A stretch of DNA of 22,206 nucleotides, taken from the IMG/VR virus record IMGVR_UViG_3300036900_000183, positions 1 to 22,206 of that record. The stretch is one strand, 5' to 3'. This DNA comes from a virus. The notes under the pieces were generated by a model. That model searched no databases and was not told where the DNA came from. It saw nothing but the letters and a program-made list of their open reading frames with translations. The translations under genes and the position numbers were made by a program. Positions 15,599 through 22,206 of the stretch are shown piece by piece (the stretch's first letter is position 1; each line of letters begins with the position of its first letter).

Positions 15599-15881
15599 TG
15601 CCAACACCTGCTAGCTTGAGAGCGTGTGACCGGCAATAACCTGGCACGATTGGGCTATTCGCCGGGTCGCCGCAGGACCCGTAGGCGCACACACCAGGCG
15701 GCTTCTCTTCGGTCGGGGCTTCTGGCTCGTCGAAGGATGGGGGCGAAGGAATCGTATCCGATAGTTCGAAGGTCATCCCGTACGCCTTGCCGTCCAGTAT
15801 TCCTAGCTCGAGACGTTTCACCCCACGCTCTCTCATCCAGGCGATCACGGAGTCAGCATCGTCGGCTTCAAGCGGCTTCAT
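15591..15881 (-). CDS. Small Cys/His protein between terminase and portal (96 aa)
   Basis: The frame runs back to 15956, but ATG at 15881 overlaps the terminase stop (ATGA) and is chosen. The protein starts MKPLEADDADSVIAWMRERG, a compact helix. A short beta unit follows (RLELGILDGKAYGMTFEL), then an acidic Pro-rich linker. The C-terminal 30 residues hold C-x4-C and, 13 residues later, C-x2-H (CAYGSC ... YCRSH). That spacing could bind zinc. No function is known to me; its place between terminase and portal suggests a packaging accessory. Confidence 0.6.
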   Translation of the reverse strand: MKPLEADDADSVIAWMRERGVKRLELGILDGKAYGMTFELSDTIPSPPSFDEPEAPTEEKPPGVCAYGSCGDPANSPIVPGYCRSHALKLAGVGNG

Positions 15882-17407
15882 ACCGTGTACCCCGTCAGTC
15901 TGGCGGCCGCCCCCGAGTCCCACGTCCGCTGCTGTGATTGCAGGTACGCGATCCACCGCTGCTCGTCGTCGCGGTCGTCGATAACCTCAGGCGCAGGTTG
16001 AGCCGGCAGCAACTGGGCACCCAGCAGCATCGCCGCGCCATAGTCGCAGTGTCGACCATCGTTTGTCTTTATGAGTACCACTTGGCTCCCGCCTGCAGCA
16101 CGGGGCCGCGTTCTGATTGCAATGAGGTCTGTCTTTAGCTGCGAGACGTTCGGGATGCTGATGGCGTTCTCCGCGAACAGATGCCGCAAACTCTGGATGG
16201 CCACGTCGTCGTTCCTGGTCGCAAGCTTCAGCGAGAAGCCGCAACAGGTAAGCTCGGCGATGTCTGAAAGATGGTCGTAACCGGCTTGGTCGGTTACGCA
16301 CTCCACCAAGTCAAACTGACGCAGCTCCTCGTCGATCTCTGGCAGTACAGCGGAAGCCTTGAGCGGCGCCGAGCGCGAGCCAATCCACTCGCGAGCCACG
16401 CACACTTCGAAGCCGCCAAGCGGTCTCGTGCCTATAATGACCAAAGTCCAGCCGTTGCCGCGCGTTGCCGGGTCGATGACCGCTACGTATCCCTGCCCCG
16501 CCGTTCGTCCGATGCGCTCGTCGCTGCGCGTACAGGCCGTCACGTTCACGGAAGCTAATAGGGCGGAGATGGGGTCAGCGAACCGCGACATGACATCCGC
16601 CTCGTAAGCACGGTCGTCGGCTTTGCGGATGCGCTCGCAGTACTCAGGCGTGTACAGCTCGGGGCGGAGCATCGGCCCGGTTGCCAGCATAACCACAAGG
16701 TCGGCACCAGGCTTACCGTGGCGCTCTGTGACGTAGTTGAACACTGGGCCTCGGGGGGCCCACAGCGAACCCACAAGGTCAATCTGTGCCCCTTTGCGCA
16801 TGCGGGCGCGGATAGCCGACAGGGCGTCATCCAGGTTCACCACACCCTCGTCCTCGCCAACCATGCGGGGCGCTTCATCAGCGATGAATCCGAGCAGCCA
16901 ACGCGACACGAGCGTCTTACCGGCTCGAGCTCCAGCCACTACTTTAATCTCAACCGGCCAGCCGGAGTGGTTGCGGATGGTCACGCTCCCGTTCTGCGGC
17001 GGCTTCACGATGAGCTGCGCCAGCATCGGCGACGAGAGTAGGGCGCCCTCTAGCTTGCTGAAGGTCTCGCGGGCTTTGTCGAGGTCAACCGATAGGATAG
17101 CGACGCGCGGAACTTCTCCAGGCGCGAGTCCCGAACAGTCTCCGAGATAAGCGTTTCGAAGTGCCTTAGCCGCGACAATCGTTGACTTACCACAGCGGAC
17201 AGCAGCCCCAAGTACGAGCATGTCCGGCGCTTCCGATGGAAGAGCAGCAACTGCGGCAGGTCCGCCAAGCATGGTAACAACGTCGTGGTCATGGGCTAAC
17301 TCCTCCAGTGGCTCGCCAGTCATCACCCGGCAAATGGCTCGCTGCACTCGGCTGATGCCTGTCATGCCGAAGCCAGCTGGCGACGCGATGAGCTGTTCCA
17401 GATTCAC
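15878..17407 (-). CDS. terL: Terminase large subunit (509 aa)
   Basis: The frame continues upstream to a TTG at 17434, but GTG at 17407 overlaps the TGA of the HNH gene (GTGA) and has a GGGG stretch seven bases upstream, so I choose it. The N-terminal ATPase has Walker A GAAVRCGKST (67-76) and Walker B FIADEAP (174-180, with the catalytic D177 E178). The C-terminal RNase H-like nuclease shows IDPATRGNGW (D312), TDQAGYD (D373) and HCDYGAA (D455), the expected three acidic positions. It would pump DNA into the procapsid through the portal and cut the concatemer. Length is normal for a terminase (450-600 aa). A small subunit should be nearby, but none of the small genes upstream is recognisable as one. 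Confidence 0.9.
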   Translation of the reverse strand: MNLEQLIASPAGFGMTGISRVQRAICRVMTGEPLEELAHDHDVVTMLGGPAAVAALPSEAPDMLVLGAAVRCGKSTIVAAKALRNAYLGDCSGLAPGEVPRVAILSVDLDKARETFSKLEGALLSSPMLAQLIVKPPQNGSVTIRNHSGWPVEIKVVAGARAGKTLVSRWLLGFIADEAPRMVGEDEGVVNLDDALSAIRARMRKGAQIDLVGSLWAPRGPVFNYVTERHGKPGADLVVMLATGPMLRPELYTPEYCERIRKADDRAYEADVMSRFADPISALLASVNVTACTRSDERIGRTAGQGYVAVIDPATRGNGWTLVIIGTRPLGGFEVCVAREWIGSRSAPLKASAVLPEIDEELRQFDLVECVTDQAGYDHLSDIAELTCCGFSLKLATRNDDVAIQSLRHLFAENAISIPNVSQLKTDLIAIRTRPRAAGGSQVVLIKTNDGRHCDYGAAMLLGAQLLPAQPAPEVIDDRDDEQRWIAYLQSQQRTWDSGAAARLTGYTV

Positions 17408-17835
17408 CAGGTAGCCCCAGTGCAGATATCGCAAATATTGGTGACAGACACGCCGTAAGCCCGCGCCACAGCTGACTTGCTTACCGGAAGAGTCTCTACG
17501 GCAAGACGGATGTCATCAACGTCCTGCGCCGACAGCTTCGAATACCGCCGACCCTTGCGAGTCATGTCTTCCAGGTTGTCGAACTGGGAACCTAAGAATA
17601 GGTGCTCAGGATTCACACATGCGCGGTTATCGCACCGATGACAGACGTAGGCATCGCCAGGATCTCCATGGTGGATAGCCCATGACGCTCGGTGTGCTCC
17701 GATGCTTCGACTACGGGTCACTCCAATTTGCCCGTACCCACAGCTGCCGAAAGATGCGATCCACTCCCAGCATCCGGTCTCGGGGTTCACAAGGTACTTC
17801 TCGTGAAACCGCTCAGCCAGCGATCGGGTCCGCAC
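17404..17835 (-). CDS. HNH homing-type endonuclease (143 aa)
   Basis: GTG at 17835 overlaps the preceding TAG by one base (TAGTG). The middle of the protein carries the HNH_3-type pattern: AHRASWAIHHGDPGD, then VCHRCDNRACVNPEHLFLGS and DNLEDMTRKGR. The His of AHRASW, the Cys pair and NPEHL are the usual metal and catalytic positions. A C-terminal helix-turn-helix (SKSAVARAYGVSVTNICDI) follows, as in free-standing homing endonucleases that use it for DNA binding. The gene lies directly before terL. HNH proteins in this spot can be selfish elements or can assist terminase cutting (as HK97 gp74 does). The HTH tail favours a homing enzyme, but the tight stop-start overlaps suggest it has been absorbed into the operon. 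Confidence 0.85.
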   Translation of the reverse strand: MRTRSLAERFHEKYLVNPETGCWEWIASFGSCGYGQIGVTRSRSIGAHRASWAIHHGDPGDAYVCHRCDNRACVNPEHLFLGSQFDNLEDMTRKGRRYSKLSAQDVDDIRLAVETLPVSKSAVARAYGVSVTNICDICTGATW

Positions 17836-19416: not shown

Positions 19417-19707
19417 TCAGTGCTCAACCTTCGCGCAGCACCAGGTCTTATCATTCGGATCGCCGCTAAAGCAGTCATAAGCCTCATTAGCGAGCCCGGT
19501 GATGTTTTGGCCATCCAGGTCGGCCGCGGTGCCATCGGCGCATTGGTAGGTCACTGAGGCAGCGTGGTGATAGGTCAGCGACGCTCCGCAGTACTCGGCG
19601 GGTTCGGCTGCGATGTGGCAGTTCGGTTCTGGAGCCGGGTCAGCGACCTGGCCAGCGCAGGCCGACAGGGTGAGAGCGAGAGCAGCTAGGGTGATGAGCT
19701 TGTTCAT
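19417..19707 (-). CDS. Small Cys-rich lipoprotein (96 aa)
   Basis: ATG at 19707 overlaps the preceding stop (ATGA). The N-terminus MNKLITLAALALTLSACAG is a lipoprotein signal peptide: basic residue, hydrophobic core and LSAC lipobox, with acylation expected at C17. Ala at +2 argues for outer-membrane sorting in a Gram-negative host. The mature part is short, polar and has six more cysteines (30, 40, 56, 79, 90, 91), which could pair in the periplasm. Known small phage lipoproteins include Rz1 spanins and receptor-blocking proteins such as T5 Llp. It lacks the Pro-rich body and Rz partner of a spanin, so a receptor-blocking or surface role is a possibility, not a finding. It sits in a cassette with two likely regulators. 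Confidence 0.78.
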   Translation of the reverse strand: MNKLITLAALALTLSACAGQVADPAPEPNCHIAAEPAEYCGASLTYHHAASVTYQCADGTAADLDGQNITGLANEAYDCFSGDPNDKTWCCAKVEH

Positions 19708-20295: not shown

Positions 20296-20312
20296 GGAAC
20301 CACCACGCTGAT

Positions 20313-20341
20313 ACTATACGGTAGCTGGGATACCAGCGCAA
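20313..20341 (-). promoter_or_regulatory. Leftward sigma70-type promoter candidate
   Basis: On the minus strand TTGCGC (20336-20341, three of six) and TATAGT (20313-20318, five of six) are separated by exactly 17 bases. Transcription would start near 20306 and run into the wHTH-like gene. It lies downstream of a terminator, as expected for the start of a new transcription unit. Confidence 0.5.
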
Positions 20342-20378
20342 GCCCTCACCACCGAAAATCGGCATCGACCAGGAGTTC

Positions 20379-20502
20379 GGCTAGCCGGCCAGCACCAGTT
20401 GCAGTCCCGCCACCTCGTCGGCTGTCATGATTCCGACGTAACTGCTCGACAGCATCCTCGAAGGCGGGGCTAGCCGCCTGTTACTGAAGGCGAGGGCTAG
20501 CC
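20379..20502. repeat. Three GGCTAGCC palindromes upstream of the leftward promoter
   Basis: The perfect 8-base palindrome GGCTAGCC occurs at 20379-20386, 20468-20475 and 20495-20502. All lie upstream of the -35 element, the nearest 37 bases away. They could be operators for the nearby regulators. Another copy is inside a coding sequence at 8886, so the word itself is not unique; the cluster is what stands out. Confidence 0.45.
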
Positions 20503-20514
20503 CACAAACGACAA

Positions 20515-20534
20515 AACCCGCCGAGAGGCGGGTT
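20515..20534 (-). terminator. Rho-independent terminator, leftward
   Basis: An 8-base-pair stem (AACCCGCC / GGCGGGTT) with a four-base loop is followed on the minus strand by TTTTGTCG. It would end leftward transcripts coming from the VapE gene and separate them from the promoter at 20313. The plus-strand side has no T-run, so it is directional. Confidence 0.7.
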
Positions 20535-20548
20535 CAGCCGGGCTCGAG

Positions 20549-20620
20549 TCACCGAAATGGCCCGATCCAATGTCCAACTTGTGAAGGGCGGGACAGGGAG
20601 ATCGTAGCCATTTCCGGTGA
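20549..20620. repeat. Long-arm inverted repeat
   Basis: TCACCGAAATGGC (20549-20561) and GCCATTTCCGGTGA (20607-20620) are inverted copies with a single extra base, 45 bases apart. It lies between the leftward terminator and the ribosome site of the plus-strand ORF. Its role is unknown; a protein-binding pair or a leader structure are options. Confidence 0.5.
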
Positions 20621-20688
20621 TTTGGGCAAGGCAGTGCTCAAAATCCAGTGCAAATGGAGGGCTATATGGCCCCGATTAAGCCTCGGCC

Positions 20689-20937
20689 ATGCCGAGAGCC
20701 GCCACCAAAGCGGCAGCCACGACCGCAGACCGTTCAACCACGGTGGCGCCCGCCACCGGTGCGCCGGCAACGGGAGTGACGTTAACGACCGCCGGGTCTG
20801 GGCTGCTGCTCACTGGCTTGGACCCCTGCAACGAGGAGCCAGCGCCCGCGCTGCGCGTCGAGCCGGGGCAGAGCTACACCGAGTGGAAGCGTAGCGGGGT
20901 TACCTACGTAGTCACTGACGCGGAGTGCAATCGGTGA
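20689..20937 (+). CDS. Small plus-strand hypothetical protein (82 aa)
   Basis: This is the only convincing plus-strand ORF. It starts MPRAATKAAATTADRSTTVA, has an Ala/Thr-rich first third, and then a plausible folded part (GSGLLLTGLDPCNEEPAPAL, RVEPGQSYTEWKRSGVTYVV, TDAECNR) with two cysteines. Codon use is G+C-rich at third positions, like the other genes. The ATG at 20689 has no ribosome site. A perfect GGAGG at 20656-20660 sits five bases before another ATG at 20666, but in a different frame (MAPIKPRP...). One extra base near 20688 would join them. So either the start is mis-set, or the sequence has a one-base loss. Function is unknown; an independently expressed accessory gene is possible. 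Confidence 0.5.
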   Translation: MPRAATKAAATTADRSTTVAPATGAPATGVTLTTAGSGLLLTGLDPCNEEPAPALRVEPGQSYTEWKRSGVTYVVTDAECNR

Positions 20938-21259
20938 TGTCGGCTTGAGCTGGCTAGAGGTAGCCCGGGGGTTGAGGTAGGGCGAGGTCATATCAGTCTA
21001 CATTTCCGATAGGGTTACCCGGATATGCGCGCGGGAGGGTAGCACGATTCGGCAAGATCGTAGCACGCAGCGTATTGAGTCAACCGTGCTCACCCTGAGC
21101 AGACCCATCTGTTTTCCGGTGTGCTCACCATTTCTTCTATCATTACCTATATTTATCATATTGAGTATACCTGAGTATATCTATTTGTTTGGCAAGAGTT
21201 GTAACTGTATAGGGTTTGGCGGATTTGGATCTCGGAAGACTCGGTGTGCTCAGTATGAC
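20938..21259. other. AT-rich intergenic region with iteron-like repeats (origin candidate)
   Basis: No convincing gene is seen. The word GTGTGCTC occurs at 21119-21126 and 21244-21251, and continues into the VapE 3' end at 21290-21297 (inverted) and 21313-21320; a partial copy, GTGCTCACC, is at 21086-21094. Between them is a markedly AT-rich stretch (about 21130-21215) with TGAGTATA at 21162-21169 and 21172-21179, ten bases (one helical turn) apart. Repeats plus an easily melted stretch next to a replication gene resemble a theta-type origin. Two copies of the 8-mer also occur elsewhere (7714 inverted, 17692), so the word alone is not specific. Confidence 0.4.
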
Positions 21260-22206
21260 TTAAACTACCGTATTCAAAGACAATTGTCCGAGCACACTGG
21301 TAAGCTCGGCATGTGTGCTCGGCCCTGGGTAATAGCGCTTCCCCTGGGCGCCATCCCGACGCTCCCTTCGCCATTCGAACCCCAGAGCTTTCAAGCAATT
21401 ACCGACCCTTGTTTGCTCTGCTCTCCCCCATTTCGATTGGTCGTGGTTCAGTGCGCCTGCAAGCGTGTCACCGATAGAGAACCCGCTCCTGGGCGTCGAA
21501 CAGTTCACGATCCATTTGGCGATCGGCTGCTCCCATTCATCACCAGCGTGTCGCGCTGCCTGCTCAGCTTTAATCTCTGGCTGCAATTCGTCGTTCGGCC
21601 ACCACTGTTCACCACGCTCGAAGAGTGCTCTGGCCTCGGCCCATATCTGGTCCCTGTCGCGCTCTAGTGCCGATCGGTTTAGCCGTGTCGTGGCTACCGG
21701 CCAGAACCGCCTAGCGCCAGTCGCGTCATGTAGGTACGCCTCATCGTTGGTCGTGGCAGCAAACACCATCTGTCGAGGCCTAGTGACCTGGAATCTGCCA
21801 TAAGGCGGGCGGTATTTATCTACCGTCCTACTCACGAAATCCTTTACGGTCGTCATGTCCTGGCGCCTAAGGGCGTCGAGCTCGCCAACCTCGGCGATCC
21901 AATTGCCTTGGAGCATGTGCCCAGCCGCGGCCTGCTTTATATCTGGCAGGCTTGGCAGGTACCATTCGCCGGCCAGAACTCGAAGCGCGGTGGACTTGCC
22001 GAGACCCTGAGCCCCTTCCAGTACGAGCATATGGTCTGCCTGGCATCCTGGCTTTAGAACTCGAGCGATCGCGCTAATCAGCCACCACTGCCCGACGGCA
22101 GATGTGTAGGCGTTTTTCGGGGCACCTAGGTAATCAGTAAGCCATGCACCTACCCTAGGCGCTCCGTCCCATTTCAGTTCGCTTAGGTATTTCTTCAGAG
22201 GGTTGA
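21260..22206 (-). CDS. VapE-family replication ATPase (5' end cut by window)
   Basis: The frame is open to the right edge, so the internal ATG at 22030 is not the true start; about 315 residues are visible. The fragment begins NPLKKYLSELKWDGAPRVGA, a typical VapE domain opening. It continues with WWLISAIARVLKPGCQADHM and the Walker A GAQGLGKST (visible residues 64-72). A Walker B-like WIAEVGELDAL and the sensor-like FAATTNDEAYLHDATGARRF then follow, all hallmarks of the family. Upstream, outside the window, one would expect a primase-like domain. VapE proteins act as replicative helicase-like ATPases in prophages, satellites and phages. The C-terminal 100 residues look like a winged-helix region. 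A terminator lies downstream at 20515. Confidence 0.92.
   Translation of the reverse strand, partial: NPLKKYLSELKWDGAPRVGAWLTDYLGAPKNAYTSAVGQWWLISAIARVLKPGCQADHMLVLEGAQGLGKSTALRVLAGEWYLPSLPDIKQAAAGHMLQGNWIAEVGELDALRRQDMTTVKDFVSRTVDKYRPPYGRFQVTRPRQMVFAATTNDEAYLHDATGARRFWPVATTRLNRSALERDRDQIWAEARALFERGEQWWPNDELQPEIKAEQAARHAGDEWEQPIAKWIVNCSTPRSGFSIGDTLAGALNHDQSKWGRAEQTRVGNCLKALGFEWRRERRDGAQGKRYYPGPSTHAELTSVLGQLSLNTVV
21288..21322. repeat. Perfect 10-bp inverted repeat in the 3' end of the VapE gene
   Basis: CCGAGCACAC (21288-21297) and GTGTGCTCGG (21313-21322) are perfect inverted copies around a 15-base spacer, within the last 20 codons of the gene. Each arm holds one iteron-like GTGTGCTC. It is likely part of the same repeat system as the adjacent intergenic copies. 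Confidence 0.6.

Follow-up and report, generated by a model that had tools for sequence, protein, structure and literature searches.

Phage P4 (alpha and ori-crr) and the Streptococcus thermophilus phage Sfi21 (with its replication-origin element) both combine a primase-helicase of a phage or satellite with a repeat-bearing origin. A further type of replicon is that of the PICIs, which in their classical form carry, to our knowledge, no structural genes of their own. PMC6092414 describes PICI origins as two sets of iterons, one on each side of an A+T-rich stretch, directly behind the 3′ end of the initiator gene, and presents this rep-ori organisation as unique to PICIs. According to PMC7581432, SaPI Rep and Cch2 act just downstream of their own genes through their C-terminal domains, and in Cch2 of SCCmec this domain binds a direct-repeat stretch at that place. 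The locus described here has the same two-set iteron layout 3′ of an initiator gene as the rep-ori replicons of SaPIbov1 and EcCICFT073, but it lies in a record with the structural genes of a tailed phage and not in a classical satellite. Cch2 differs from the VapE protein of this locus in that PMC7581432 describes it as a Primase_Cterm/D5-type helicase like SaPI5 Rep, with three iterons only (AAGTG).

The vapE locus and its repeat array

The window, that is, the whole 22,206-nt stretch of viral DNA analysed, is a 22-kb record encoding terminase-like, portal-like and weakly capsid-like proteins. Comparison of the window proteins with PHROGs identified a terminase large subunit (phrog_2, E 7.5e-10) and a portal protein (phrog_156, E 7.1e-6), while the capsid-like match, SU10_MCP, scored 20.8 bits, under the curated cut-off of 24.1 bits. 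The terminase-like and portal-like genes therefore mark the record as a phage whose putative origin is of the PICI type, as opposed to a classical PICI. The early region of this phage is absent from the record. At the end of the window lies the 3′ part of vapE, whose product belongs to PF05272 (E 1.5e-76, with 257 bits where the cut-off is 25, over profile positions 1-215 of 217). As in PICIs, iterons are found immediately 3′ of the initiator gene, and the features of the region are as follows.

21260-22204, minus strand: 3′ part of vapE, 314 codons, running off the window end; stop codon at 21260-21262; proposed initiator
21075-21322, minus strand: proposed origin, an A+T-rich stretch with ten iteron sites on its two sides (word counts, motif fits, shuffles, relatives)
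21312-21322, plus strand: iteron TGTGTGCTCGG, inside vapE coding sequence (motif fit; same place within one base in relatives L012-L014)
21288-21298, minus strand: iteron AGTGTGCTCGG, inside vapE coding sequence (motif fit and relatives)
21243-21253, plus strand: iteron GGTGTGCTCAG (motif fit and relatives)
21234-21244, plus strand: degenerate iteron GGAAGACTCGG, one turn from GGTGTGCTCAG (relatives only; missed by the window's motif fit)
21171-21181, minus strand: iteron GATATACTCAG, first of a tandem pair (motif fit and relatives)
21161-21171, minus strand: iteron GGTATACTCAA, the other member of this tandem pair, 10 bp away (motif fit and relatives)
About 21130-21169, no strand: A+T-rich stretch of 40 bp, proposed unwinding element, overlapping the end of the tandem pair
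21118-21128, plus strand: iteron GGTGTGCTCAC, across the A+T-rich stretch from the tandem pair (motif fit and relatives)
21095-21105, minus strand: iteron GGTCTGCTCAG (pattern match, motif fit and relatives)
21084-21094, plus strand: partial iteron, CCGTGCTCACC in the original prediction and GGTGAGCACGG in the strand reading of the relatives (relatives)
21075-21085, minus strand: iteron GGTTGACTCAA (relatives only; missed by the window's motif fit)

The original prediction had placed four exact copies and one partial copy of an 8-mer, in both orientations, near vapE, and had estimated that chance would give less than one copy per window. These repeats are real and lie at the places given. The word GTGTGCTC has six copies in the window, of which four belong to the array (21119+, 21244+, 21290- and 21313+) and two lie outside, the latter being the scattered copies already noticed (7714- and 17692+). 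Shuffled versions of the whole window held 0.84 copies on average (sd 0.87), and none of 100 reached six. A second word, TGAGTATA, had been seen twice, one helical turn apart; its copies at 21162 and 21172, the only two in the window, are indeed 10 bp apart, but they do not constitute a separate word, being the same motif as GTGTGCTC on the opposite strand (TATACTCA). That is, the two words form a single iteron, GGTNTRCTCAG when read in the direction of vapE (minus strand). On this strand GTGTGCTCA and GTATACTCA each match GTNTRCTCR, a pattern with nine matches in the window against 2.47 expected (a count reached by one shuffle in 100); six of the matches fall in the interval 21096-21321. With degenerate sites allowed, ten GGTNTRCTCAG sites span 21075-21322. 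The array, first placed at 21083-21322 beside vapE, does adjoin the gene, but its copies at 21290 and 21313 lie inside the vapE frame and its other end reaches about 21075. The 40 bp at 21130-21169 are the A+T-richest of the stretch scanned around the vapE stop codon (80% A+T against 40% for the locus), and five fitted sites flank this stretch on each side, a few of the fitted sites being weak.

Could such an array arise by chance, or by repetition of words related to coding? Two copies are in coding sequence, and by repeat density the array stretch ranks only fifth among 439 steps along the whole 22-kb window, so that the argument draws on more than the window by itself. Likewise, although GTGTGCTC is the only 8-mer of the window with four copies inside 210 bp, some 8-mer does so in 6 of 100 shuffled windows. 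Against this, the 300-bp array stretch holds 86 pairs of 8-mers with at most one mismatch, compared to 29.9 (sd 8.5) after shuffling, a count that none of 1000 shuffles of the stretch reached. The places of the sites and their concerted switching, common to three relatives (see below), already contradict an origin by chance, which we regard as exceedingly improbable. An RNA or hairpin element was rejected as well: at gathering scores nothing in Rfam matched, the window holds no tRNA, and single-strand folding was unremarkable (z -1.28, with 20 of 200 shuffles folding equally well).

Past the array follows a gap of about 1 kb with no recognisable gene. It contains an 82-codon ATG frame at 20689-20937 (plus strand) that none of the PHROGs match. 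Outside the array, between it and the next minus-strand gene, a terminator-like hairpin with a T-rich tail is found at 20514-20535 (minus strand); one such hairpin was found where shuffles gave 0.9. Further on, a 96-residue frame at 19417-19707 (minus strand), with a lipoprotein-like beginning (MNKLITLAALALTLSACAG), is matched by none of the PHROGs. An HNH endonuclease gene, perhaps of the homing type, lies at 17404-17835 (minus strand; phrog_59, E 6.3e-29) and overlaps the terminase-like frame (15878-17434) at the latter's start.

Fixed places and concerted letters in close relatives

A DNA similarity search with positions 20300-22206 against the phage collection gave no match, and conservation was therefore tested through the protein. 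Four VapE relatives were taken from the scan of viral contigs, three of which (L007-L009, identical to L012-L014) are 70-72% identical to the window in the VapE fragment. Motifs fitted separately in these three lie at near-identical offsets from the vapE stop codon; those of L014 are -24, 0, 45, 54, 117, 127, 170, 194, 204 and 213, with an extra site at -95. The window's own fit gave 11 sites, the offsets of which had to be moved by 39 bp, since in the window the vapE frame reaches 13 codons deeper into the array. After this shift, seven of the 11 agree to within one base with an L014 site of like orientation, another (205) overlaps an L014 site on the opposite strand, and the remaining three are unpaired. 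The window's sites at 54 and 213, two of its ten, were recognised by comparison with the relatives only. Altogether, the places shared within one base number ten in the window, L013 and L014, and nine in L012.

The letters at the ten places were then read in the four sequences, allowing one base of slack at most. In its centre the motif has T at nine of ten sites in the window and at all ten in L014; it has A there at all nine sites in L012, where the tenth place has no site, and at nine of ten in L013. CACA replaces CTCA at 18 of the 19 sites of the latter two relatives. The central letters of L012 and L014 differ at all nine shared sites, although no other of the six pairs has helicase cores so much alike (193 of 214 residues, 90%). 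Thus the letters of the array change together while its geometry is kept, as expected of binding sites for a single protein. Conservation among relatives, the lack of which was part of what the original prediction would have taken as refutation, was found, in the form of a conserved layout with switched letters. The fourth relative, L010 (the same as L023), carries another word, TCTCTC, behind its vapE.

Single residues that might explain CTCA versus CACA were sought and abandoned. Six alignment columns separate the two pairs, including residue 281 (E and E versus Q and A) in the predicted first strand of the wing. The other two possible pairings give five and nine separating columns, so that the residue columns are no evidence.

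In the contig of the relative G002, the stretch 3′ of vapE ranks 29th of 682 in repeat density. Bases 1-300 of this contig (L153) are its most repeat-dense stretch (z 35.1). Among 18 proteins compared with PHROGs, 17 of them encoded by G002 and one by the relative L007, no primase or helicase family was matched other than on VapE itself.

The array across wider vapE loci

An alignment search provided the best 80 of 177 viral-contig loci and 48 genome-contig loci, which together with the window make 129. Of these, 124 were usable (three had no stop codon in the fetched DNA and two had less than 250 bp beyond it), and 73 were left after removal of near-copies. The most repeat-dense 300-bp interval of the locus falls between -50 and +250 relative to the vapE stop codon in 48 of the 73 non-redundant loci, where about five would be expected; this 3′ interval is among the top two of its locus in 57, and the remaining 16 have no top-two interval there. 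The iteron words themselves vary greatly by lineage (for example GTCCCAC, GTCTCTC, GTCGTGA, CGTCACA and GTGTATG). At two loci, repeat stretches far stronger than the vapE array occur at a distance from the vapE stop codon (L026 at about +2429, z 115; L081 at about +1756, z 89.5).

A separate set of 48 loci was selected for a top-two 3′ interval and a motif score of at least 40, and is thus not a random sample. In this set, of the 249 direct neighbours no more than 14 bp apart, 201 have a spacing of 8-10 bp, where the fit allowed nothing under 7. In 44 loci, against 10.2 expected, the A+T-richest 40 bp have at least two fitted sites on each side. In L118, twelve fitted sites stand in a row with 9-11 bp spacing, from -29 to +74 of the vapE stop codon; elsewhere the sites are grouped in pairs or triplets. 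A downstream gene is common to only 83 of 1128 locus pairs, none of which involves the window (eight loci had less than the full 1.8 kb). The genes downstream being mostly unrelated, the array belongs with vapE and not with a neighbouring gene.

These results bear on whether the repeats could instead be an operator array, through which VapE or another phage regulator controls vapE or the genes beyond, with no origin at the site. The sites are paired and inverted, as in operators, the gap of about 1 kb follows them, and one promoter-like match lies inside the array (21155-21183, minus strand; shuffles average 0.5). However, the array sits 3′ of vapE in loci whose downstream genes are mostly unrelated, tandem spacing of 8-10 bp around an A+T-rich core is origin-like, and no repressor family was matched among the window proteins scanned. 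We therefore think it improbable that regulation is the sole role of the array, although autoregulation alongside an origin function is possible.

Isolated phages

Twenty records of isolated phages were examined, ten of the 60 best-listed (chosen for host diversity) and ten taken from 30 rows at intervals along a ranking of 943. The 3′ interval ranks first in seven of the first ten and in four of the second ten, leaving nine of the 20 with no top interval directly 3′ of vapE. In Haddon, RcJoli and Taco, a strong array further downstream is the top interval of the locus (+520, +251 and +733, respectively), and in Bacteroides phage BO668P2 the 3′ interval comes second, with a weak motif. No array was found directly behind vapE in Phocaeicola phage BV739P1, Achromobacter phage Mano, Leuconostoc phage LM0121, Pseudomonas phage Nemo and Burkholderia phage Mica. 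The rule thus does not hold for the whole superfamily.

Genome-wide repeat density was calculated for three complete phages picked from the seven that already ranked first locally. The 3′ interval was first of 838 in Marinobacter phage PS3, first of 694 in YeP5 and first of 877 in Corynebacterium phage Adelaide. The array of PS3 lies at about 35.3 kb, with the terminase gene at 26.2-28.0 kb, and that of Adelaide at about 36.8 kb, with the terminase gene at 0.4-2.0 kb. Such distances weigh against the repeats being packaging (cos or pac) or integration (attP) sites whose place beside vapE is incidental. That reading would fit a gap that separates the replication gene from the structural module, with an HNH gene and terminase about 4 kb away. 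The array nevertheless accompanies vapE at loci whose neighbouring genes differ, among them the satellite record Javan325, and no integrase family was matched among the window proteins scanned, which makes a packaging or integration site very unlikely. GC skew failed as an origin marker: the inflection that the original prediction had looked for is absent, the extremes lying away from the site in the window, in G002 and in the three complete phages.

The VapE protein

An AF2 model of the VapE fragment (27 aligned sequences, mean pLDDT 89) consists of an SF3/AAA+-type helicase core followed by a predicted C-terminal winged helix, with helices at residues 225-233, 244-250 and 261-273 and strands at 276-283 and 286-293. 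Its best structural match is 7pds, PriRep1 with double-stranded DNA (Z 27.8, rmsd 4.1 over 294 residues; next entry Z 14.4). This protein, annotated as ‘similar to D. nodosus vapE’, is the closest solved fold and covers model residues 1-302, including the winged helix, though identity to the VapE of the window is just 25-30%. The SaPI5 primase-helicase (7ola and 7om0) aligns over residues 1-220, that is, the helicase core (Z 12.1-12.4).

Iteron similarity between loci correlates with identity in the C-terminal domain (0.454) about as with identity in the core (0.436), the two identities being correlated with each other at 0.798. The partial correlation with the C-terminal domain is 0.196 (4 of 2000 permutations as high); for the helicase core, once the C-terminal domain is controlled for, the value is little lower, 0.137 (68 of 2000). 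When loci with poor motifs were dropped (42 of 48 kept), the values were 0.210 (1 of 2000) for the C-terminal domain and 0.111 (111 of 2000) for the core. These sequence comparisons only modestly favour the C-terminal domain as the reader of the iterons.

Discussion

Layout, comparison and fold make it well supported that the array behind vapE is an origin. The original prediction of an origin beside a replication gene is borne out by the place of the array 3′ of vapE, by the flanked A+T-rich stretch, by the relatives and by its recurrence at the wider loci. We put at about 0.84 the probability that 21075-21322 is the replication origin of this phage, at which VapE would bind, melt the DNA and load itself. 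In the mechanism that we propose, VapE, made from the gene immediately upstream, would bind the GGTNTRCTCAG iterons through its C-terminal winged helix and assemble as a ring-shaped helicase on the two sets of sites that flank the A+T-rich stretch. Binding would melt this stretch, VapE would load itself there as the replicative helicase, and replication would start at this place.

A broader picture is tentative, and we hold it to be somewhat less probable than its opposite. The private origin words of different lineages may have been rewritten in concert at about ten fixed positions, the geometry remaining frozen, and VapE phages may form a large replicon class. The word and the winged helix might then set compatibility groups among co-infecting phages and satellites, with a recognition code readable from paired vapE and origin sequences.

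If the origin reading is right, the origin of many VapE phages could be read from the first 250 bp after vapE, without culture and in uncultivated viruses as well. The switch from CTCA to CACA between cores that are 90% identical would offer natural pairs for studying how a self-loading helicase changes its DNA specificity. Finally, an organisation described as unique to PICIs would be widened to tailed phages, which bears on the source of the replicons of the satellites.
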